Source of the DNA: Candidatus Mediterraneibacter avicola
Lineage (GTDB): Bacteria; Bacillota; Clostridia; Lachnospirales; Lachnospiraceae
Assembly: GCA_019115385.1 (NCBI GenBank)
Contig: DXDR01000031.1
Location: forward strand, 1 to 57,612
Reading direction: 5' to 3'
DNA length: 57,612 nucleotides
Position numbers and translations under genes: made by a program. Below the pieces are notes generated by a model. The model made no database searches. It was not told the DNA's origin and saw only the letters and a list, made by a program, of their open reading frames with translations. Positions 2,736-27,338 of this stretch are shown piece by piece. Each line of letters opens with the position of its first letter. Within the stretch, counting starts at the first letter, position 1.

Positions 2736-4130
2736 GTGATACACCAGTATCAGAATAACGGATATAATATTGTCCTCGATGTAAACAGCGGAGCCGTGCA
2801 TGTGGTGGACCAGGCCGCGTATGATGTGATCAGGGAGCTGGAGCAGCAAAATGAATTCCACACCCCGGAGACGCTGAGATCAGAGGAGACGGCTGCTTTC
2901 CTGAGAGAGCGGCTGGGAGAGACATATACCCGGGAGGAATTGTCTGAGATCCTGGAGGCAGTGGCCGGACTTACGGAAGAGGGCCGCCTGTTTACCCGGG
3001 ATGTATATGAAAATTTTATAGATGAAGTAAAGCAGAGGAAGACGGTCGTCAAGGCGCTCTGCCTTCATATCGCCCACGACTGCAATCTGGCCTGTAAATA
3101 CTGCTTCGCGGAGGAAGGCGAGTATCACGGCCGCCGCGCGCTGATGTCCTTTGAGGTGGGGAAGAAAGCCCTGGATTTCCTGATCGCCAATTCGGGCGGC
3201 AGGAGAAACCTGGAGGTGGATTTCTTCGGCGGAGAGCCTCTTATGAACTGGCAGGTGGTCAAAGATCTGGTGGCTTACGGAAGAGAGCAGGAGAAGCTCC
3301 ACGACAAACATTTCCGTTTTACGCTCACCACGAACGGCGTGCTCTTAAATGATGAAGTTCAGGAATTTGTCAACCGGGAGATGGACAACGTGGTCCTCAG
3401 CCTTGACGGGCGAAAGGAAGTAAACGACAGGATGCGCCCCTTCCGGAACGGAAAGGGAAGCTATGACCTGATCGTGCCGAAATTTCAAAAGCTGGCGGAC
3501 AGCAGAGGCCAGGATAAATATTATGTGCGGGGCACCTTTACCCGAAATAACCTTGATTTTTCCGAGGACGTGCTCCACTTTGCAGAACTGGGATTCAAAC
3601 AGATATCCATCGAGCCTGTAGTAGGTGAAGAGACAGATCCCTATGCGATACGTGAGGAGGATCTTCCGGCTATCTTTAAAGAATATGATAAACTGGCAAA
3701 GATCATGGTGGACAGAGAGAAAGCTGGCGAAGGATTCAATTTCTTCCATTTCATGATCGATCTGGAAGGCGGGCCCTGCGTGTCTAAGCGTCTGTCAGGC
3801 TGCGGTTCCGGCACAGAATATCTTGCGGTTACGCCTTGGGGCGATCTCTACCCGTGCCACCAGTTTGTGGGGCAGGAAGAATTCCTTATGGGAAATGTGG
3901 ATGAGGGCATTGTAAATCCGCAGATCGCAGATGAGTTCAGAGGCTGCAGCGTGTACTCCAAAGACAGATGCAGGAAATGCTTTGCCAGATTTTACTGCAG
4001 CGGAGGATGCATGGCAAATGCATATAAGTTCCATGGCAGCATCAACGACACCTATGAGATCAGCTGTGAGATGGAGCGCAAACGTGTGGAATGCGCCATT
4101 ATGATAAAGGCCGCTCTGGCGGACGAGTGA
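2736..4130 (+). CDS. scfB: Radical SAM SCIFF maturase
   Basis: This 464-residue protein binds a [4Fe-4S] cluster through C116-x3-C120-x2-C123 (CNLACKYC). It has an N-terminal peptide-recognition region (residues 1-100, RRE-like) and a C-terminal SPASM domain with CGSGTEYLAVTPWGDLYPC and a final CxxC-x5-C-x3-C cluster (CRKCFARFYCSGGC). It installs thioether crosslinks in the ScfA peptide encoded immediately upstream. The start is GTG at 2736, preceded by GAGAGGA. Its stop lies 16 bases before the chosen secDF start, which suggests cotranscription and coupled translation. Confidence 0.92.
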   Translation: MIHQYQNNGYNIVLDVNSGAVHVVDQAAYDVIRELEQQNEFHTPETLRSEETAAFLRERLGETYTREELSEILEAVAGLTEEGRLFTRDVYENFIDEVKQRKTVVKALCLHIAHDCNLACKYCFAEEGEYHGRRALMSFEVGKKALDFLIANSGGRRNLEVDFFGGEPLMNWQVVKDLVAYGREQEKLHDKHFRFTLTTNGVLLNDEVQEFVNREMDNVVLSLDGRKEVNDRMRPFRNGKGSYDLIVPKFQKLADSRGQDKYYVRGTFTRNNLDFSEDVLHFAELGFKQISIEPVVGEETDPYAIREEDLPAIFKEYDKLAKIMVDREKAGEGFNFFHFMIDLEGGPCVSKRLSGCGSGTEYLAVTPWGDLYPCHQFVGQEEFLMGNVDEGIVNPQIADEFRGCSVYSKDRCRKCFARFYCSGGCMANAYKFHGSINDTYEISCEMERKRVECAIMIKAALADE

Positions 4131-18052: not shown

Positions 18053-19837
18053 ATGGCTGAATCAATGCAGGGATTAAGGAGAACCCACCGCTGTGGTGAA
18101 TTATCCGCCGCAAATGTGGGCGAGACTGTAACTATCATGGGATGGGTACAGAAAAACAGAAATAAAGGCGGGCTTGTGTTTATTGATGTGCGCGACCGTT
18201 CGGGAATCGTCCAGGTTGTTTGTGAGGAGGGGAAAACCGATGCGGCGCTTCTTGAGAAGGCGGCTTCACTGCGGGCAGAATATGTGGTTGCCATTGTCGG
18301 AGAAGTGGCAAAACGTTCTGGCGCGGTTAATGAGAAGATCGCTACAGGTGAGATTGAGGTGCTGCCGTCAGAACTGCGGATCCTTTCCGAGTCTCTGACG
18401 CCTCCGTTCCAGGTGGAGGAGAACTGTAAGACAAAGGAAGAGGTGCGCCTGAAATACCGTTATCTTGACCTGCGCAGGCCGGATATCCAGAGAAATCTTA
18501 TGATGAAAAGCCAGGTTATGACGCTGACAAGACAGTTCTTCAGTGAGGAAGGTTTCCTTGAGATCGAGACTCCCATGCTGGGTAAGACAACCCCAGAGGG
18601 CGCGCGAGACTACCTTGTGCCCAGCCGTGTGCATCCGGGATGCTTCTACGGTCTGCCCCAGTCACCCCAGCTTTACAAGCAGCTTTTGATGTGCTCCGGG
18701 TTTGACCGCTACATCCAGATCGCAAGATGTTTCCGTGATGAAGACCTGCGCGCGGACAGACAGCCGGAGTTTACACAGATCGACATGGAGCTGTCTTTCG
18801 TAGATGTGGATGATGTGATTGATGTTAATGAAAGATACCTTGCGAAGCTGTTCAAAGAAGTGCTGGATGTAGAAGTTCCACTTCCGATCCAGAGGATGAC
18901 ATGGCAGGAAGCGATGGACCGCTTTGGTTCCGATAAACCGGATCTGCGCTTTGGCATGGAGCTTACGGACGTGACAGACGTGGTAAGAGGCTGTGGTTTT
19001 GGCGTATTCACAGGTGCAGTTGAAAATGGAGGAAGCGTGCGCGGCATCAACGCAAAAGGCCAGGGGGGAATGCCGAGAAAAAAGATCGACAAGCTGACTG
19101 CATTTGTAAAAGATTATGGTGCAAAAGGACTTGCATATATTGCGATCGCGGAAGATGGCGCAGTGAAATCTTCCTTTGCCAAGTTTATGAGCGAAGAGGA
19201 GATGGACGCGCTTATCAAAGCGATGGATGGACAGCCGGGCGACCTGCTTCTGTTCGCGGCTGACAAAAATAAAGTCGTGTGGGATTCTCTGGGAGCCCTT
19301 CGCGTAGAGCTGGCGCGTCAGCTTGAACTTCTGGATAAAAACGAATATCGCTTTGTATGGATCACTGAGTTCCCGCAGTTTGAGTGGAGTGATGAGCAGG
19401 GACGATATCTTGCCATGCATCATCCGTTTACTATGCCGATGGAAGAAGATCTGCCGCTTCTGGATAAAGGAGAACTTGGCAAAGTACGTGCGAAGGCTTA
19501 TGATATCGTTCTTAACGGGAATGAGATCGGTGGCGGAAGTGTGAGGATCCATCAGGATGACATTCAGGAGAAGATGTTCGAGGCCCTTGGGTTTACGAAA
19601 GAACAGGCGCACAGCCAGTTCGGTTTCCTGCTCGAAGCGTTTAAGTATGGGGTTCCGCCGCACGCAGGACTTGCATATGGCCTGGATCGTCTTGTCATGC
19701 TCATGGCAAAACAGGAGAGCATCCGCGACGTGATCGCGTTCCCCAAGATCAAAGATGCGTCCTGCCTGATGACAGAGGCGCCGACTCCGGCAGATGAAAA
19801 ACAGCTGGAGGAGCTGGGGCTCTCAATAGTAGAATAG
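18053..19837 (+). CDS. aspS: Aspartyl-tRNA synthetase
   Basis: The 594-residue protein is the long bacterial type. It has an N-terminal OB-fold anticodon domain (GWVQKNRNKGGLVFIDVRDRSG), motif 2 (RCFRDEDLRADRQPEFTQID), a GAD insertion (about 300-400) and motif 3 (AYGLDRLVMLMA). It charges tRNA-Asp, possibly also tRNA-Asn if the cell uses the amidotransferase route. AAAGGAG lies eight bases before the ATG. It is the last gene of the relA operon; a large palindromic element begins one base after its stop. Confidence 0.93.
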   Translation: MAESMQGLRRTHRCGELSAANVGETVTIMGWVQKNRNKGGLVFIDVRDRSGIVQVVCEEGKTDAALLEKAASLRAEYVVAIVGEVAKRSGAVNEKIATGEIEVLPSELRILSESLTPPFQVEENCKTKEEVRLKYRYLDLRRPDIQRNLMMKSQVMTLTRQFFSEEGFLEIETPMLGKTTPEGARDYLVPSRVHPGCFYGLPQSPQLYKQLLMCSGFDRYIQIARCFRDEDLRADRQPEFTQIDMELSFVDVDDVIDVNERYLAKLFKEVLDVEVPLPIQRMTWQEAMDRFGSDKPDLRFGMELTDVTDVVRGCGFGVFTGAVENGGSVRGINAKGQGGMPRKKIDKLTAFVKDYGAKGLAYIAIAEDGAVKSSFAKFMSEEEMDALIKAMDGQPGDLLLFAADKNKVVWDSLGALRVELARQLELLDKNEYRFVWITEFPQFEWSDEQGRYLAMHHPFTMPMEEDLPLLDKGELGKVRAKAYDIVLNGNEIGGGSVRIHQDDIQEKMFEALGFTKEQAHSQFGFLLEAFKYGVPPHAGLAYGLDRLVMLMAKQESIRDVIAFPKIKDASCLMTEAPTPADEKQLEELGLSIVE

Positions 19838-20299
19838 GTTCGGATTTGTCGAAGGGAACTTCTGGACAGAGAAAAAGGAAAACAGAGGACAAAGGAGTTC
19901 TTATAAGACGGATTCAGAAGAGGGGAACAGGAAATTCTGATTCCGTTCCATGAGTTAAGAAAAATAAAGGAACCTGAGGATCAGCTAAAAACAGGATTTG
20001 CAGCGGGCTAACTTGCATACGCCCGGACAGAACCCGCTGCAAATCCTAACGCTGATCCTCAGGTTCCTATTTTTCTAACCTCATTCCAAAGTCATCAGAA
20101 TTTCCTGTTCCCCTCTTCTGAAAGGCGCATCCAAAAACTTTCCGGCCTTCCGTTTTTCTGTTCCTCAGACCGGAAAATTCCTTCGTAATATCTTATAAGA
20201 CAAAAGCAAGGAGAACTTTAATGGAGAAAAAGACAGAGGATCCGGACAGGCAGTACTGACGTTCTGAATCCAGTCAGCAGCATCCCCGACAAATCCGAA
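19838..20299. repeat. Large structured palindromic element, copy A
   Basis: This gene-free stretch has outer inverted repeats TTCGGATTTGTCG (19839-19851) and CGACAAATCCGAA (20287-20299). A 210-base core contains three nested perfect stems: S1 19913-19941 with 20094-20122 (29 bp), S2 19968-19985 with 20051-20068 (18 bp), and S3 19993-20007 with 20033-20047 (15 bp). Between S1 and S2 the loops are TCCGTTCC (19942-19949) and TCCAAAGTC (20085-20093). Between S2 and S3 they are TAAAAAC and AAC. Copy B at 26900-27338 keeps the loops but has different stems. The element could be a structured RNA or a non-autonomous mobile element. Confidence 0.8.
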
Positions 20300-20346
20300 T
20301 TCCCATATAAATCCCGAATCTCCGGGCTTTTTAATTTTACATAGAT

Positions 20347-20421
20347 TTAACATACTTCTGATTTTACATTTAACATTTCCCTTTTATGATGAATACCGTG
20401 GTTGACACAGAATAATATAAT
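20347..20421 (+). promoter_or_regulatory. Candidate Pho-regulated promoter of pstS
   Basis: TTAACA (20347-20352), TTTACA (20363-20368) and TTAACA (20370-20375) resemble PhoP-box hexamers of Firmicutes. TATGAT (20385-20390) lies 16 bases after TTTACA, and a perfect TATAAT lies at 20416-20421. A TTGACA at 20402-20407 is only eight bases before that TATAAT, too close to act as its -35. The adjacent two-component system is the likely regulator. The exact start site cannot be chosen by eye. Confidence 0.45.
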
Positions 20422-20449
20422 CCAGATTTGAAAAAGGAGATTATGAACA

Positions 20450-21334
20450 ATGAAAATGAAAAAGTTTATTGCAGTTTTGACTATGGCAGGTATGATGACA
20501 GCGCTTGCTGCAGGATGCGGTTCTGACAACGGTTCTGACAGCGGTGATTCCGGTGAGTGGGATGCAGCAAAAGAAATCACAGTCGTATCCCGTGAGGAAG
20601 GTTCTGGAACAAGAGGAGCATTTACAGAACTGTTCGGTGTTGTAGATGAGGATGACAACGATATGACAACACTTGAGGCTCAGACAACAAATAACACATC
20701 TGTTATGATGACAACTGTATCTGAAAATGAGTATGCGATCGGGTACATATCACTGGGTTCTCTTGACGAGTCTCTTGTAAAAGCTGTGAAAATCGATGGA
20801 GCAGAGGCTACAGCAGAGAATATTGAAAACGGAACTTATAAAGTGTCCAGACCGTTTAATGTAGCAGTTAAGCCGGATCTTGACAATGCAGTTGCAACAG
20901 ATTTCCTTGCATTCATTATGAGCACAGAAGGCCAGGCAGTTGTTGAGGAAGAAGGTTATATCCCGGTATCTGACGTGCAGGCATATGCAGGAACACAGCC
21001 GGAAGGAAAAGCAGTTGTGGGCGGTTCTTCTTCTGTATCTCCGGTAATGGAGAAACTGATCGAGGCTTACGAAGCAGTTAACCCGAATGCAGAGATCGAG
21101 CTTCAGACAACAGACTCTACAACAGGTATGACCAATGCGATCGAAGGAAGCTATGATATCGGAATGGCATCCAGAGAGCTGAAAGAGGAAGAGGCTGCTG
21201 AACTTACAGGAACAGTTATCGCAACAGACGGTATCGCAGTAATTGTAAACCTGAACAACCCGACAGACGATATGACAGTTGACCAGGTTAAATCAATCTA
21301 TGTTGGCGACGTTACAACATGGGATGCAATCTAA
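20450..21334 (+). CDS. pstS: Phosphate ABC transporter substrate-binding lipoprotein (permuted order)
   Basis: The protein of 294 residues has a lipoprotein signal (LAAGC) and binds phosphate outside the membrane for PstCAB. The usual two halves are in reversed order. The first half begins EITVVSREEGSGTRGAF and runs through GYISLGSL and VSRPF, which normally form the C-terminal half. The second half begins VVGGSSSVSPVMEKLIEAY and runs through MASRELKEEE and DGIAVIVNLNNPT to VGDVTTWDAI, normally the N-terminal half. Both halves keep their phosphate-contact motifs (SGTR and GSSSVSP). Total length is normal. This suggests circular permutation, not damage. AAAGGAG precedes the ATG. Confidence 0.88.
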   Translation: MKMKKFIAVLTMAGMMTALAAGCGSDNGSDSGDSGEWDAAKEITVVSREEGSGTRGAFTELFGVVDEDDNDMTTLEAQTTNNTSVMMTTVSENEYAIGYISLGSLDESLVKAVKIDGAEATAENIENGTYKVSRPFNVAVKPDLDNAVATDFLAFIMSTEGQAVVEEEGYIPVSDVQAYAGTQPEGKAVVGGSSSVSPVMEKLIEAYEAVNPNAEIELQTTDSTTGMTNAIEGSYDIGMASRELKEEEAAELTGTVIATDGIAVIVNLNNPTDDMTVDQVKSIYVGDVTTWDAI

Positions 21335-21423
21335 GCAGACAATAGAAGAAGCTTAGGCGGCGAACAAACAGACAGGGCGGATCTGGAAAGTCCGACTGGC
21401 AGAAATTCCGCTTAAAGTTAAGT

Positions 21424-21453
21424 ATGAGCCGGGCAGACATCTACCCGGCTCAT
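21424..21453 (+). promoter_or_regulatory. Hairpin between pstS and pstC
   Basis: ATGAGCCGGG (21424-21433) pairs perfectly with CCCGGCTCAT (21444-21453). No T-run follows; AGGAGG of pstC comes right after. It probably keeps pstS transcripts more abundant than those of the permeases. Confidence 0.6.
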
Positions 21454-21465
21454 TAGGAGGCAAAA

Positions 21466-22359
21466 ATGAAATCGAAAGCATGGACTGAGAAATTCATGCA
21501 GGGAGTGTTCTTTGTTGCCGCGTGCGCGTCAGTGCTGGCGGTAGCGCTCATTTGTATCTTTCTGTTTGCAAATGGTATCCCTGCAATAAGAGAAATTGGA
21601 TTTGTGAAATTTATTACAGGGGACATCTGGCGCCCGGGCAGCGAACAGTTCGGCATCTTTCCAATGATCATCGGCAGCCTTTATGTGACCGCAGGCGCAG
21701 TTATCTTCGGAGTGCCGATCGGGATCCTGACCTCTGTATTTATGGCAATGTACTGCCCGAAAAAAATCTATAAACCGCTGAAAGCGGCGACAGAGCTGCT
21801 TGCCGGAATTCCGTCGGTTGTATACGGCTTTTTCGGTCTGGTGGTTGTTGTGCCGATCGTGCGCAGCTTTGGCGAGACACTGTATGATGCAGGGCTTGTA
21901 AAAAGTGCAGGAAACGGAAACAGTATTCTGACTGCTTCCCTGATTCTGGGAATGATGATCCTGCCAACGATTATCGGAACAACAGAAAGTGCAATGCGGG
22001 CTGTTCCCGTTCATTATTATGAAGGTTCCCTTGCGCTGGGTGCAACGAAAGAAAGAAGTATTTTCCGCGTGATCATCCCGGCTGCAAAATCCGGCGTGAT
22101 CGCAGGAATCGTACTTGGAATGGGCCGCGCGATCGGTGAGACAATGGCTGTCATAATGATCGTTGGAAACCAGGCGCGCCTTACGACCAGCATGCTGGAC
22201 GGTATCCGTACTCTGACCGGAAATATCGTAATTGAAATGGGATATGCGACAGGGATTCACAGAGAGGCGTTGATCGCCACAGGAGTTGTGCTGTTTGTGT
22301 TCATCCTGATCATCAATTTCAGCGTAGCGCTGTTAAAGAGGAGGGCGGATCATGAGTAA
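21466..22359 (+). CDS. pstC: Phosphate ABC transporter permease PstC
   Basis: This 297-residue integral membrane protein has about six helices. It carries the permease signature around GATKERSIFRVIIPAAKSGVIAGIVLGMGRAIGETMAV, including the EAA-like loop that contacts PstB. An N-terminal helix (VFFVAACASVLAVALICIFLF) and KFITGDIWRPGSEQFGIFPMI are typical of PstC. The gene overlaps pstA by eight bases, so the permeases are translationally coupled. Confidence 0.93.
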   Translation: MKSKAWTEKFMQGVFFVAACASVLAVALICIFLFANGIPAIREIGFVKFITGDIWRPGSEQFGIFPMIIGSLYVTAGAVIFGVPIGILTSVFMAMYCPKKIYKPLKAATELLAGIPSVVYGFFGLVVVVPIVRSFGETLYDAGLVKSAGNGNSILTASLILGMMILPTIIGTTESAMRAVPVHYYEGSLALGATKERSIFRVIIPAAKSGVIAGIVLGMGRAIGETMAVIMIVGNQARLTTSMLDGIRTLTGNIVIEMGYATGIHREALIATGVVLFVFILIINFSVALLKRRADHE

Positions 22360-23212
22360 TAAAACTACGATTGGCGATAAACTCAGGACTTATCTGAAAC
22401 ATCCGGGTTCGTTTATTATGATGCTGCTCGTAATGCTGGCGGCGATTCTCACTTTTGCCGTACTGATTTTCCTGATTGCATATATATTGATCAATGGTGT
22501 GCCGCACTTGACTCCGTCGCTTTTCTCATGGGAGTATTCATCAGAGAATGCGTCGGTTGTGCCTGCGCTGATCAATACAATTATCATGACACTTTTATCC
22601 CTGCTGATTGCAGTTCCCTTTGGTATTTTTTCTGCAATCTTCCTTGTGGAATATGCAGGAAGAGGAAATAAATTTGTGGAGGTTATCCGGCTGACAACAG
22701 AAACACTTTCCGGTATCCCGTCTATCGTGTATGGACTGTTCGGTATGCTGTTTTTTGTCAACACTCTGGGGTGGGGCTTCTCGCTTCTGGCGGGCGCTTT
22801 TACTCTGGCGATCATGATACTTCCTCTGATCATGAGAACTACTGAGGAGGCGCTGAAATCTGTTCCAGACTCCTACCGTGAAGGAAGCTTCGGGCTTGGG
22901 GCAGGAAAACTGCGGACAGTGTTCCGCATCGTCCTTCCCTCTGCGATTCCGGGCGTCCTGGCAGGCGTTATCCTGGCAATCGGACGTATTGTAGGAGAGA
23001 CGGCGGCTCTGATGTATACATCTGGTACAGTCGCACAGATTCCTTCAAGCATCATGGGTTCCGGCCGTACACTGGCGGTACACATGTACAATCTGTCCAG
23101 TGAAGGACTCTACATGGATCAGGCTTATGCGACAGCAGTTATCCTGCTTATCCTTGTAGTGGGGATCAATGCACTCTCAAGTGTGATTGCAAGAAAACTT
23201 ACGAAAGTATAA
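22352..23212 (+). CDS. pstA: Phosphate ABC transporter permease PstA
   Basis: The 286-residue membrane protein pairs with PstC. The EAA loop is GSFGLGAGKLRTVFRIVLPSAIPGVLAGVILAIGRIVGETAA. The earlier LTTETLSGIPSIVYGLFGMLFF block is typical of PstA. It has about six transmembrane helices and normal length. GGAGG lies inside the end of pstC. Confidence 0.93.
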   Translation: MSNKTTIGDKLRTYLKHPGSFIMMLLVMLAAILTFAVLIFLIAYILINGVPHLTPSLFSWEYSSENASVVPALINTIIMTLLSLLIAVPFGIFSAIFLVEYAGRGNKFVEVIRLTTETLSGIPSIVYGLFGMLFFVNTLGWGFSLLAGAFTLAIMILPLIMRTTEEALKSVPDSYREGSFGLGAGKLRTVFRIVLPSAIPGVLAGVILAIGRIVGETAALMYTSGTVAQIPSSIMGSGRTLAVHMYNLSSEGLYMDQAYATAVILLILVVGINALSSVIARKLTKV

Positions 23213-23232
23213 AATGTGAAAAAACTGTGAAC

Positions 23233-23267
23233 GGGGACGTAGTAAAATCCAAATTGACTACGTCCCC
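23233..23267 (+). promoter_or_regulatory. Hairpin between pstA and pstB
   Basis: GGGGACGTAGT (23233-23243) pairs over 11 bp with ACTACGTCCCC (23257-23267). No T-run follows, so it is a likely stabiliser or partial attenuator inside the pst operon. Confidence 0.55.
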
Positions 23268-23287
23268 AATCAAGAAAGGGTAAGGAA

Positions 23288-24037
23288 ATGTCAAAGATAA
23301 GTATTAAGAATCTTGATTTATATTACGGCGATTTTAAAGCTCTTAAAGATGTAAATCTTGAAATCGAAGCCAACAAGATCACCGCTTTTATCGGGCCTTC
23401 CGGATGCGGTAAATCTACTCTTTTAAAATCGATCAACCGTATGAATGACCTGGTCGAGGGCTGCCGCATTGAAGGGGAGATCCTTCTGGACGGACAGAAC
23501 ATTTTTAAAGGTATGGATGTAAATATGCTGAGAAAGCGTGTGGGTATGGTTTTCCAGAAACCGAATCCGTTCCCCATGAGCATCTATGATAATATTGCCT
23601 TTGGTCCCAGGACACATGGCGTCCATTCCAAATCAAAACTGGATGATATTGTAGAGAAATCTCTGCGCAACGCCGCCATCTGGGATGAGTGCAAAGATCG
23701 TCTCAAAACGAGTGCGCTGGGTATGTCCGGCGGACAGCAGCAGAGACTCTGTATTGCAAGAGCTCTGGCAGTAGAGCCGGAAGTGCTTCTGATGGATGAG
23801 CCTACATCGGCTCTGGACCCGATTTCTACATCCAAGATTGAAGACCTTGCGATGGAACTGAAAAAAGATTATACTATTGTCATGGTTACACATAATATGC
23901 AGCAGGCGGTGCGTGTATCTGACAATACCGCATTCTTCCTTCTCGGAGAGGTTGTAGAATACAACGACACAGAAAAATTATTCTCAATACCGGCTGATAA
24001 GAGAACAGAAGACTATATCACAGGGAGGTTTGGTTAA
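23288..24037 (+). CDS. pstB: Phosphate ABC transporter ATP-binding protein PstB
   Basis: The 249-residue ATPase has Walker [10 protein letters not shown], the PstB-type [20 protein letters not shown] segment, signature [13 protein letters not shown] and Walker [12 protein letters not shown], then the switch His in VTHNMQQA. It powers PstCA. AAAGGG precedes the ATG. PhoU starts three bases after its stop. Confidence 0.95.
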
Positions 24038-24040
24038 ACT

Positions 24041-24709
24041 ATGCGTAATAAATTTGACCAGCAGCTGCATCTTCTTGACGAGCAGCTCACACATATGGGA
24101 GAACTTTGCGAGATGGCCATTGCGAAAGCAACGCAGGCGCTGAAAGACGGAAGTATTGAGCAGGCGAAGATTATTATCGCAGAGGACGAGGAAATCGACC
24201 AGATTGAAAAAGATATTGAGAGACTTTGCCTCAAACTTCTTCTTCAGCAGCAGCCTGTGGCAAAGGATCTGAGAAGAATCTCAGCGGCTCTGAAAATGAT
24301 CACAGACATGGAGCGCATCGGAGACCAGACATCCGATATTGCTGAAATTATTATCTCTTCAAAGGGTGTTGCCGCCACAGATGAGATTCATGTAATCGGA
24401 ACAATGGCTTCCGAAGTGAGCAAAATGGTGCGCAACAGCGTGACCGCGTATGTAAACAGAGATCTTGAACTTGCACAGAGCGTTATGGCGGCCGATGATG
24501 AGATCGATCAGTATTTTGAAGAAGTCCGGGACGAGATGATCGACTTTATCAAGGAAGAAAAAGGTGAGAACGGAAAGCGGATATTTGACCTGATCATGGT
24601 GACAAAATATCTTGAAAGAATCGGTGATCATGCGACAAATATTGCTGAATGGGTAGAATTTTCCATCACAGGAGTTCACAAGGACAGCGCGATAATCCAC
24701 GAGAGCTGA
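24041..24709 (+). CDS. phoU: Phosphate signalling protein PhoU
   Basis: The 222-residue all-helical protein is made of two PhoU repeats of three helices. Each carries an E/D-x3-D metal cluster motif (EDEEIDQIEKDIE near residue 50, AADDEIDQYFEEVRDEM near 150). ERIGDQ and ERIGDHATNIAEW are the family's signature repeats. PhoU links the transporter's state to the sensor kinase and keeps it silent when phosphate is plentiful. Confidence 0.93.
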   Translation: MRNKFDQQLHLLDEQLTHMGELCEMAIAKATQALKDGSIEQAKIIIAEDEEIDQIEKDIERLCLKLLLQQQPVAKDLRRISAALKMITDMERIGDQTSDIAEIIISSKGVAATDEIHVIGTMASEVSKMVRNSVTAYVNRDLELAQSVMAADDEIDQYFEEVRDEMIDFIKEEKGENGKRIFDLIMVTKYLERIGDHATNIAEWVEFSITGVHKDSAIIHES

Positions 24710-24902
24710 TTGGTCTTGCGCGAAGTGTATAACAGTTTCAGACACCCTGCAGCAAGAGCAGGGTGTCTGGTAAAAGGACTGCCGGCCGTACATGGTACAG
24801 AACATATTCTGCGTCCGGCAATCCAGGAATGAAAAGCAGGAACGTGACGGTACAAAACCGTGCATACTGCGGAAACGAAAAGGATAATAAGGAGAAGTTT
24901 GA
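24710..24902 (+). promoter_or_regulatory. Hairpin-rich gap between phoU and the response regulator
   Basis: CAGACACCCTG (24739-24749) pairs perfectly with CAGGGTGTCTG (24759-24769), followed by GTAAAAGG, not a T-run. Smaller stems follow (a GCCGG/CCGGC pair near 24782-24819 and ACGGT/ACCGT near 24848-24862). This may attenuate readthrough from pst into the regulator genes. No convincing promoter was found. Confidence 0.45.
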
Positions 24903-25577
24903 ATGATATATTGCGTGGAAGATGACGACAACATCCGGGAACTTGTAATATATACATTGGAAACAACGGGACTCAAGGCAAGAGGGTTCGCAGATGGTTC
25001 TGCTTTCATGGAGGCTTTGGCGTTCGACACGCCAGAGCTTATTTTACTTGACATCATGCTCCCGGGCGACGACGGGCTTGAGCTTCTGAAGAAACTGAAA
25101 TCTTCACAGAAAACAAAAGGAATCCCGGTTATTATGGTGACCGCAAAAGGAACGGAATATGACAAGGTGATCGGGCTGGATTCCGGCGCCGATGATTATG
25201 TGACAAAGCCTTTTGGGATGATGGAGCTTGTCTCCAGGATCAAAGCAGTCCTGCGCCGCAGCGGAAAAGTAGAGGACCGTATGGATATGGACATTGCAGG
25301 CGTCCATGTAAATGTAAAAAAACATGAGGTGACCGTAGGGGGCAAAGAAATCTCGCTCACCCTGAAGGAGTTTGAACTTCTGGAAAAGCTGATGCGCAAT
25401 CAGGGAATCGTTCTCACAAGGGATCAGCTTCTCACGGAAATCTGGGGATATGATTTTGACGGAGAGACTCGTACCGTGGACGTACATATCCGTACTCTGC
25501 GGCAGAAACTGGGAGAGAAAGGCGAGATTATCCAGACTGTGCGCGGTGTGGGATATCGTGTCGGTGGAGATGCATGA
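24903..25577 (+). CDS. Response regulator, PhoB/PhoP type
   Basis: The 224-residue OmpR-family regulator has a receiver domain with acidic patch EDDD, phospho-acceptor D50 (LLDIMLPGDDG) and Lys in VTKPFG. Its winged-helix DNA-binding domain starts around residue 130 (LTLKEFELLEKLMRNQG to RTVDVHIRTLRQKLG). Position after phoU indicates control of the pst operon. It overlaps the kinase gene by four bases. AAGGAGA precedes the ATG. Confidence 0.9.
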   Translation: MIYCVEDDDNIRELVIYTLETTGLKARGFADGSAFMEALAFDTPELILLDIMLPGDDGLELLKKLKSSQKTKGIPVIMVTAKGTEYDKVIGLDSGADDYVTKPFGMMELVSRIKAVLRRSGKVEDRMDMDIAGVHVNVKKHEVTVGGKEISLTLKEFELLEKLMRNQGIVLTRDQLLTEIWGYDFDGETRTVDVHIRTLRQKLGEKGEIIQTVRGVGYRVGGDA

Positions 25578-26899
25578 GAAAACGAATACAAAGGAGCATG
25601 ATGCTGATCCTTGCTGTGACGCTAGTGCTCTTTTATGCTATCATATCTGTGATTTTATATAACAGAAATCTGGATCTGCTTAAAAGTGAAGTGAAACAGG
25701 AGGCAGAATATATCTGCACTGCAGTAAATATTTCAGGTCCTTCTTATCTGGAGCAGATGTCCCAGGTAGACGAGAGGACCCGTGTGACCCAGGTGGATGA
25801 CGAAGGAAACGTTCTGTATGATTCTTCCAGTGAAGAGGATGACATGGAAAATCACGGGACACGGGAGGAGATAGAGGAGGCGCTGTCCTCGGGAACCGGG
25901 GAAGCTGTGAGAATGTCAGATACACTGGGAAGGGAACTGTATTATTACGCAGTTCTGCTTGATGACGGGTCAGTGCTGCGGGTTGCAAAATCGATGGATA
26001 ACCTTGCCCTGACAGCGCTCAACGTACTTCCGGTGATGGGAATCCTGGCTGTTGTGACGATGGCTCTGGCGCTTCTCCTTGCCAAGTGGCAGACGAAGCG
26101 GCTGATTAAGCCGATCAATGAACTGGATCTGGAGCATCCCCTGGAAAATACACTCTATGAGGAACTGAATCCTCTTCTTGTGGCTATGGACAAACAGAAC
26201 AAGGAAAAAGAGGCTGTGTCTAATATGAGAAAAGAATTTTCCGCAAATGTCTCTCATGAGCTGAAGACTCCGCTCACGTCAATCTCGGGCTATGCGGAAA
26301 TTATGAAAAACGGCATGGTACGGCCGGCAGATATCCCGGTTTTTTCGGAAAGAATCTACAAAGAAGCCAGAAGACTGATCACTCTGGTGGAGGATATTAT
26401 CAAACTATCCAAATTGGATGAGGAATCGGTAGAACTGGAAAAAGAAGAAATAAATCTCTATGAACTGACCAGAGAAGTGGTGAGCCACCTGGCTCCTCTG
26501 GCATCTCAAAAACATATTCGGATCGAGATCACAGGAGAGCAGGTCCAATGTTTCGGTATTCGGCAGATTCTGGATGAAATGATCTATAACGTGTGTGAAA
26601 ACGCTATTAAGTACAACAACGAAGGCGGCCGGGTGTCTGTCTGGGTTGGAAATACACTTGAAGGGCCGAAAATCAGTGTCTCTGATACGGGGATCGGAAT
26701 CCCCCAGGAACATCAGGAACGCATTTTTGAGAGGTTTTACCGTGTAGATAAGAGCCATTCAAAAGAGCGTGGCGGCACGGGCCTGGGGCTTTCGATCGTA
26801 AAGCACGGAGCGCTGCTGCATGGGGCGAAGGTCAGCGTTGAAAGTACGCCCGGAAAAGGGACAAGAATGGAAATGTTGTTCCCGAGAGATAAGGGATGA
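25574..26899 (+). CDS. Sensor histidine kinase, PhoR type
   Basis: The 441-residue protein has an N-terminal helix (about 9-29), an external sensor region, and a second helix (about 153-173). HisKA follows with H228 (ANVSHELKTPLTSISGY), then a HATPase domain with N box (CENAIKYNNEGG), G1 (DTGIGIP) and G2 (GGTGLGLSIVKH). It phosphorylates the overlapping response regulator. It lacks an obvious PAS domain, making it shorter than many PhoR proteins. A large structured element starts one base after the stop. Confidence 0.9.
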   Translation: MRKRIQRSMMLILAVTLVLFYAIISVILYNRNLDLLKSEVKQEAEYICTAVNISGPSYLEQMSQVDERTRVTQVDDEGNVLYDSSSEEDDMENHGTREEIEEALSSGTGEAVRMSDTLGRELYYYAVLLDDGSVLRVAKSMDNLALTALNVLPVMGILAVVTMALALLLAKWQTKRLIKPINELDLEHPLENTLYEELNPLLVAMDKQNKEKEAVSNMRKEFSANVSHELKTPLTSISGYAEIMKNGMVRPADIPVFSERIYKEARRLITLVEDIIKLSKLDEESVELEKEEINLYELTREVVSHLAPLASQKHIRIEITGEQVQCFGIRQILDEMIYNVCENAIKYNNEGGRVSVWVGNTLEGPKISVSDTGIGIPQEHQERIFERFYRVDKSHSKERGGTGLGLSIVKHGALLHGAKVSVESTPGKGTRMEMLFPRDKG

Positions 26900-27338
26900 A
26901 ATTACGGATTTGTATGATTGAGAAGGGACACCAGTCTCTCCCGGCTGACTTCTCTCTCACACAGTTCCGAATTCCGACAGACAAAATGAAGACAGAACTT
27001 TCCCGGCTGTATTTAGCATGATATCCGTTAGTAAAATTTCCGCTTTGCTTCTTTCTGAAAATGAGGGGTGTGTCCTTTAGGTTCCGTTCCGCAGAAGAAA
27101 AACTGAAAAACCTGACGACAGGCTAAAAGCAAAATTTACAGCAGAAAACTCGCGTTCCGCTCACACAATTCTGCTGTAAATTTTAACGCCTGCCGCCAGG
27201 TTTTTCGTTTTTATAACATCTGCTTCAAAGTCACCAAAAGGACACACCCCTCATTTTCAGATACGCTTATCCAGCCTGCTGGTATCTAGGTGTTTTCGTA
27301 CGCCTCTTCACTCACAGTTCCCCGACAAATCCGGAATT
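26900..27338. repeat. Large structured palindromic element, copy B
   Basis: This gene-free stretch is bounded by CGGATTTGT (26905-26913) and CGACAAATCCG (27323-27333), the same outer repeats as copy A. Its core has S1 27054-27078 with 27237-27261 (25 bp, perfect), S2 27105-27123 with 27188-27206 (17 of 19 pairs), and S3 27131-27146 with 27169-27184 (16 bp, perfect). The internal loops TTCCGTTCC (27082-27090) and TTCAAAGTCA (27223-27232), and TAAAAGC and AAC, match copy A. The stem sequences do not. Both S2 mismatches are A-C on this strand, so they would be G-U pairs if the other strand is transcribed. Confidence 0.8.

Follow-up and report, generated by a model that had tools for sequence, protein, structure and literature searches.

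Two nested-hairpin elements directly behind stop codons in Candidatus Mediterraneibacter avicola, probable members of a mobile family with a conserved fold

Elements A and B behind aspS and a phoR-type gene

Contig DXDR01000031.1 of the Candidatus Mediterraneibacter avicola assembly GCA_019115385.1 (positions 1 to 57,612, forward strand; "the window" refers to this whole stretch of 57,612 nucleotides) contains two elements, A and B, each with terminal inverted repeats and a core of nested hairpins. Both begin immediately 3' of a stop codon: A follows the stop codon of aspS (19835-19837) and B that of a gene for a PhoR/PnpS-type sensor kinase (26897-26899), here called phoR. A previous sequence-only reading of the window had noticed the two elements and had proposed selection on a folded RNA or a protein-bound hairpin; the start at the stop codon and the conserved motif of the apex (AACTCGC..GCTCARACA) were not part of it. 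The features are:

18053..19837, plus strand: aspS (aspartate-tRNA ligase), the gene upstream of A
19838..20299, plus strand: element A, complete, with terminal inverted repeats and nested-hairpin core; longest internal open reading frame (ORF) 42 amino acids
19839..19851, plus strand: left terminal repeat of A, TTCGGATTTGTCG, complementary to 20287-20299 at 13/13 positions
19913..19941, plus strand: 5' arm of the outer core stem of A, 29 bp with 20094-20122
19926..20115, plus strand: conserved core of A, covariance-model match of 154 bits (A is among the model's 24 sequences)
19942..19949, plus strand: loop TCCGTTCC of A, facing CAAAGTC at 20087-20093; fixed in the alignment of 24 cores, yet also a search pattern
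19968..19985, plus strand: 5' arm of the middle stem of A, 18 bp with 20051-20068
19993..20007, plus strand: 5' arm of the inner stem of A, 15 bp with 20033-20047
20008..20032, plus strand: apical region of A, a variant of the conserved apical motif (CTAACTTGC..GGACA)
20287..20299, minus strand: right terminal repeat of A, partner of 19839-19851
25574..26899, plus strand: gene for the PhoR/PnpS-type sensor kinase upstream of B; best NCBIfam scores below the curated cut-offs
26900..27338, plus strand: element B, complete, with terminal inverted repeats, longer left arm and nested-hairpin core; longest internal ORF 35 amino acids
26905..26913, plus strand: left terminal repeat of B, CGGATTTGT, partner 27325-27333
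27054..27082, plus strand: 5' arm of the outer core stem of B, 28/29 with 27233-27261
27067..27254, plus strand: conserved core of B, covariance-model match of 165 bits (B is among the model's 24 sequences)
27083..27090, plus strand: loop TCCGTTCC of B, facing CAAAGTC at 27226-27232
27099..27123, plus strand: 5' arm of the middle stem of B, 21/25 with 27188-27212
27131..27146, plus strand: 5' arm of the inner stem of B, 16/16 with 27169-27184
27147..27168, plus strand: apical region of B, AACTCGC..GCTCACACA

Both elements are real, and their plan is largely as first read: the outer inverted repeats (13 nucleotides at 100% in A, 14 nucleotides at 93% in B), the nested stems and the loops TCCGTTCC, TAAAARC, AAC and CAAAGTCA are all found in place. 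Two statements needed correction. Four of the six stems are perfect when paired without gaps, not five (29/29, 18/18 and 15/15 in A, 16/16 in B; the other two stems of B pair at 28/29 and 21/25), and it was too strong to say that the helix sequences differ almost completely: the two cores share 120 of 183 aligned bases (66%), with inner helices that align and an outer core stem that does not. The same 66% is not the near-identity of copies that the sequence-only reading had named as evidence against itself. Core A folds at -94.6 kcal/mol (z -13.9) and core B at -100.2 kcal/mol (z -15.3); for each, none of 200 dinucleotide shuffles folded as low. The core starts 88 nucleotides after the stop codon in A and 167 nucleotides after it in B, which has the longer left arm.

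When the window was scanned with the covariance model described below, scores were high at A and B only; the other matches were the wrong strand of A (21.6 bits) and a match of 11.8 bits at 3377-3468, which is not credible. An Rfam 15 scan of the window returned no family at the gathering threshold: the best sub-threshold score, at A, was 57.8 bits with 211 needed, and sub-threshold matches were mostly to microRNA-type hairpin models. Just 3' of A, at 20313-20335, a hairpin with a T tract is visible by eye, possibly the original aspS terminator; a consensus terminator scan calls this hairpin on the minus strand only.

Occurrence and covariation of the core

The loop pattern TCCRTTCC-N(120-150)-CAAAGTC is present in 43 of 58 Mediterraneibacter genomes, with 97 matches in genome G045; the reversed pattern, used as control, gave 0 or 1 match per genome and strand, and some matches to the true pattern are chance occurrences in coding sequence. 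From 178 distinct matches, 118 passed a folding-energy filter and fell into 33 clusters (the copies from Deltaproteobacteria, see below, were kept apart); nine clusters were dropped by eye as chance, leaving 24 representatives. These 24 divergent cores were aligned with MAFFT by sequence only, RNAalifold gave 32 pairs for the alignment, and a covariance model was built from it with Infernal.

We tested 31 pairs; an invariant pair that joins the two search-pattern loops was omitted, as was the innermost stem, which is misaligned by one base between groups. The share of cells that pair is 86.3%, compared with 58.5% in shuffles and 38-47% with partners slid by 1-3 columns, a percentage that is raised by the energy filter on the representatives and by taking the structure from the same alignment. 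Two-sided changes occupy 222 cells (69.6 in shuffles) and the covariation score is 0.771 (0.261 in shuffles); these two values and the share of pairing cells were matched by none of 500 shuffles. Two-sided change at all 31 pairs is weak evidence by itself, as 5 of 500 shuffles equal it (mean 27.3). Conservation is concentrated in the unpaired positions: 27 of 44 unpaired columns are at least 95% identical and only 6 of 97 paired ones, with mean column identities of 0.86 and 0.62, respectively. For TCCRTTCC and CAAAGTC the fixity in this alignment (A1) is partly built in, since both were search patterns; the other loop motifs were absent from the loop-pattern search, and the apex was part of a second search pattern.

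Complementary arms could also be kept without selection, by template switching during replication. If the arms were mainly corrected in this way, with loops alike by descent and little selection on either, two-sided changes should far outnumber one-sided ones, as they do (222 and 28 cells), and long perfect stems should occur, as in L017 with 36 bp. This explanation leaves the fixed internal loops unaccounted for: they stay constant while the stems turn over in the same copies, and an exact apical motif recurs in eight families of the phylum (see below) with no match to its control. We consider it improbable as a full account, and template switching may explain part of the perfection of the stems.

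With up to 44 candidates scored per genome, the covariance model matches 48 of the 58 genus genomes. The genome of the window has 19 matches, the ten best of at least 106 bits. A draw of 250 genomes from the family (up to 10 candidates scored per genome) gave matches in 19, including the genome of the window; the other 18 represent 18 further genera, ten with at least 45 bits and eight weaker, down to 26 bits. At 18 loci in 15 other genomes of this draw, all 19 matches carry the apex AACTCG..CTC(A/G)(A/G)ACA, a motif that is part of the model. In matches from other genera the parts keep their order and the loops are related (CCGGTTTCGG, CTAAG, GCTAAAAGCA, AACTCGCTTCGCTCAGACA, TAACRCAAAT, CTAAG and CTGCAAAGTC, for example). 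The wrong strand of true copies scores 20-34 bits; under about 35 bits, and in part of the genus counts, matches may therefore be other long hairpins. The Infernal search that the sequence-only reading had suggested as a check, and the shuffle-based covariation test used here instead of R-scape, both found what it predicted, and its proposal of selection on a folded RNA or a protein-bound hairpin gains support from the many homologues, the strong covariation and the fixed loops; the folded strand may be RNA or single-stranded DNA.

Across the phylum, 12 of 299 genomes, from eight families, contain the exact apical motif AACTCGCTNCGCTCARACA, with up to 36 copies per genome; its reversed control has no match in the 299. 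By eye the motif sits in or close to the apex of a nested hairpin at 13 of 15 loci (L451 and L447 are doubtful). The genome of the window has no exact copy: its apices are variants. The very high copy numbers in single genomes, 97 loop-pattern matches in G045 and 36 apical motifs in G660, suggest recent expansion. In L474, L487, L495 and L541 the same apex is found with TTAACG-/TTCACGG-like and CTAAAAA internal-loop strands on the sides opposite to those in A and B.

Viral contigs hold the apical motif in 87 stretches. Among 81 such occurrences, 23 have a closing helix of at least 6 pairs and 36, found in two AT-rich contexts, have none; the apical motif alone therefore does not define the element. 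These 36 (L476, L497 and relatives) have AACTCGCTTCGCTCAAACA in conserved AT-rich contexts without closing hairpin, in many cases on proviral contigs.

Several further candidates were discarded. Nine stretches of viral contigs with the full loop pattern show no nested fold by eye, and single loop-pattern matches in other phyla (Flagellimonas, Pontixanthobacter, Zixiibacteriota and others) are dissimilar to each other and fit chance. The terminal repeat CGGATTTGT is not usable as a family tag: it has 50 matches in the genome with mostly unrelated flanks, and the loop pair is present in few of 47 loci inspected. BLAST searches with the B core against plasmids, with one G045-type element against phages and with the L203 viral-contig hairpin against plasmids and phages gave no match. 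Two stretches of about 90 bp on the minus strand of the window's own genome (L010 and L032) have CGGATTTGT at one end, a ACGAATCCG- or CTAAATCC-like sequence at the other and a shared TTTCGGACGGTTTACC interior, and are possibly smaller relatives.

Position, strand and ends of the elements

Placement behind stop codons is not restricted to A and B. The stop codon of an ORF that has 90 or more codons and points toward the element lies 79-92 nucleotides before the core in 21 of 25 elements (from the present genome, G023, G046, G007, G053 and G057). Among the exceptions, the distance is 115 in L238, 101 in L237, and 400 and 120 in L413, and L395 has a stop only on its other side. All three stop codons, TAA, TAG and TGA, are used. 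For a further 28 elements, mostly from G045, 15 of 19 sense genes stop 80-121 nucleotides before the core pattern. In G028, where a repeat AAATCTGAGTTTG forms the ends, a stop codon is found at -2 to +6 for 31 of 46 repeat ends (at most 1 mismatch): 17 ends form the stop from a T and the repeat's own AA, and five have the stop at -8 inside the repeat, the position that random entry in that frame would favour. The contrast to these counts, which come without a formal null model, is provided by the copies from Deltaproteobacteria, whose distances to gene ends vary widely.

The same two gene ends are occupied in other genomes. An element-like start directly 3' of the gene was seen by eye in 11 of 29 readable aspS loci (L301 was excluded) and in 10 of 30 phoR loci, in both cases including the window's own; elsewhere, aspS is followed by a plain hairpin or by neither structure. 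Scanning with the model confirmed cores at 8 of 15 aspS loci, one of them truncated at the edge of its contig, and at 8 of 30 phoR loci, where one further match is weak. At phoR, the present genome and G023 share 66% of the core sequence and 90% of the 199-amino-acid query; the phoR-locus cores of both genomes are nearer to elements elsewhere, B being closest to G023 elements at other loci. A is also closest to G023 elements at other loci (88-91%); the G023 aspS copy breaks off where its contig ends and resembles A as far as it can be read. Three aspS loci (L290, L291 and L302) have the core antisense to the gene. The cores of L290, L291 and the sense-oriented L287 are 96-97% identical, and such near-identity in opposite orientations suits descent with inversion. 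Judged from these comparisons, elements at the same gene ends seem both to persist and to be newly inserted or replaced.

A position directly behind genes is what would be expected of a cis-acting RNA of mRNA 3' ends, which is co-transcribed, folds in the 3' untranslated region (UTR) and stabilises, terminates or regulates the message, with mobility merely spreading it. Cores lie behind stop codons and sense to the gene (the 21 of 25 in the 79-92 nucleotide band, with L395 as the one element whose stop is confined to the other side), each core of a two-core element has the orientation of its adjoining gene (12 of 12 with cores facing), and aspS genes free of the element have, by eye, a hairpin and T tract 5-12 nucleotides past the stop (L293, L296-L298). 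Other observations fit such a 3'-UTR function less well: the antisense cores at L290, L291 and L302, an orientation to tandem genes of merely 9 to 6 in the further 28 elements, and the widely varying distances of the Deltaproteobacteria copies from gene ends. A further objection comes from the mismatches in the stems. An RNA should tolerate G.T on the sense strand, and G.T is scarce there: on the given strand, 30 isolated mismatches are A.C or C.A and 4 are G.T or T.G (23 of 24 representatives), and the ratio is 99:24 in 81 of 83 distinct cores and 3:2 in 11 Deltaproteobacteria copies. An excess of A.C over G.T on the given strand favours the complementary strand. The picture differs in a second set of 21 model-found cores (16 from other genera, five from the present genome), where the ratio is 16:14 and no excess is seen. 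Folding energy was rejected as a guide to the strand: the complement is the more stable strand for 24 of 24 cores, yet the same holds for 240 of 240 mononucleotide shuffles, which makes this an effect of composition. Altogether, we regard a primary role as 3'-UTR RNA as possible, if rather unlikely.

The units of G028 are 244-865 bp long and result from pairing of the repeat AAATCTGAGTTTG; some have no core, and further modules recur in them. Single-core elements are commoner (19 of 25), and in two-core elements the cores face each other in 12 of 12, overlapping opposite-strand matches of one hairpin being excluded. A second nested hairpin module (GCAGC..CGCCGGCACTT..GCGCG..TTTGCGC..CGAAAG) recurs in elements in either orientation (in the 3' part of L237, G000:C31, and in L234 and L272-L275 of G028) and is found alone behind phoR in two genomes (L419 and L420). 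Regarding enzymes for mobility, a Y1 transposase match is present in 10 of 12 genomes examined and IS66 transposase matches in 4 of 5 genomes searched; as a partner, Y1 transposase is doubtful, its presence not being consistent with that of the element (G023, G017).

Among the matches listed, metagenome-assembled genomes (MAGs) of Deltaproteobacteria (two where named), a distant phylum, hold transposons in which TCCGTTCC, CAAAGTCAC and the apical motif occur together, in numerous copies. These copies are about 225 bp long, start with GTAAC and have the ends GTAACTGTTCAGCG and CGCTGAATAGATAC; where both ends were recognised, 13 of 29 are flanked by identical 8-bp duplications and 20 of 29 by duplications matching at 7 or more of 8 positions. 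Going by the shared motifs, a common origin of these copies and the Mediterraneibacter elements is likely. Terminal repeats and the 8-bp duplications in the Deltaproteobacteria MAGs would also suit ordinary miniature inverted-repeat transposable elements (MITEs), driven by a transposase and with an idle palindromic interior. Covarying stems and fixed loops are not expected of an idle interior, and the G028 units are without duplication; we consider this explanation very improbable.

Interpretation and comparison with known systems

We propose to read A and B as two copies of a mobile, non-autonomous element with a fold-conserved core, the loops of which are read by a factor, and give this reading as a whole a probability of roughly 0.55. 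Its parts differ in strength: that the family is mobile, a question left open by the sequence-only reading, and that its fold is conserved we hold to be very probable, and recognition of the loops by a trans-acting factor is held less firmly. In the proposed mechanism the core, about 190 bases in nested stems with fixed sequence in the unpaired parts, would act as one folded strand. A putative trans-acting factor would read the fixed loops, for which the stems would be the scaffold; this reading would serve to keep or copy the element, which would settle in the short gap between stop codon and terminator. More speculatively, and in our view unlikely, the elements could belong to a cross-phylum superfamily of mobile nucleic acids that is defined by fold and loops rather than by an encoded protein and that, in Mediterraneibacter, is directed to the end of translation, at any stop codon, via the translated state or the nascent 3' end.

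A number of observations weigh against the proposed reading. No partner enzyme was found: Y1 transposase has no match in G023, with 42 model matches, and is matched in G017, which has no element. None of 21 G028 units has an exact target duplication of at least 4 bp, and these units contain ORFs of 49-169 amino acids. The excess of A.C over G.T mismatches on the given strand (30:4 and 99:24) suits the complementary strand; in the second set (16:14) it is absent. The Deltaproteobacteria copies score 18-27 bits with the model, no higher than wrong-strand matches, so that their link to the family rests on loops and apex, themselves the search pattern. Finally, if terminal repeats are what moves these copies, their mobility does not need the core, which favours another role for it.

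Hundreds of matches to one covarying fold are found in a common gut genus, many of them directly behind genes, with no Rfam match at threshold in the window. Should a protein read the loops, it may lead to a new recombinase or RNA-binding system; if the RNA acts in 3' UTRs, many genes gain a mobile regulatory end at once. The stop-codon placement is a sharp and testable puzzle. The mobile hairpin family has apparently not been described before: searches of open-licence papers gave no description of the element, and for its motif strings they gave unrelated papers only.

Structured RNAs in Rfam likewise have stems that covary and loops that stay fixed; in the window none attains its gathering score, and a group IIC intron was dismissed there too, as no Rfam family of any kind matched. 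Integron attC sites have a fold that is conserved above sequence, are active as one strand and sit just after a stop codon. The elements here resemble them in fold over sequence and in the position after the stop codon; they are much longer and lie beside housekeeping genes. IS66-type elements have GTAA ends and 8-bp duplications. Like MITEs, including those of IS66 type, the elements have terminal inverted repeats and no transposase gene (ORFs of at most 42 amino acids in A and 35 in B; the G028 ORFs of 49-169 amino acids were not searched for homology), and the Deltaproteobacteria copies begin with GTAAC and have 8-bp duplications; unlike in MITEs, the interior is structurally constrained, and the G028 copies are without duplications and lie at stop codons. 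The triplex motif described in PMC4666352 is a different motif. The BOX and RUP repeats of pneumococci (see PMC3049150) are also small, interspersed, intergenic and modular with RNA-like folds, a likeness of general description. Repetitive extragenic palindromic (REP) sequences are 20-40 bp long according to PMC3733652; the core of about 190 bases in nested stems is outside this size, and a Y1 gene, the class to which the RAYT transposases of REP sequences belong, is not consistently present. With REP sequences and REPINs (see PMC3116915 and PMC3733652) the elements share that they are non-autonomous, intergenic, palindromic and present in many copies, and the arrangement of two inverted units typical of REPINs is found in all 12 two-core elements.

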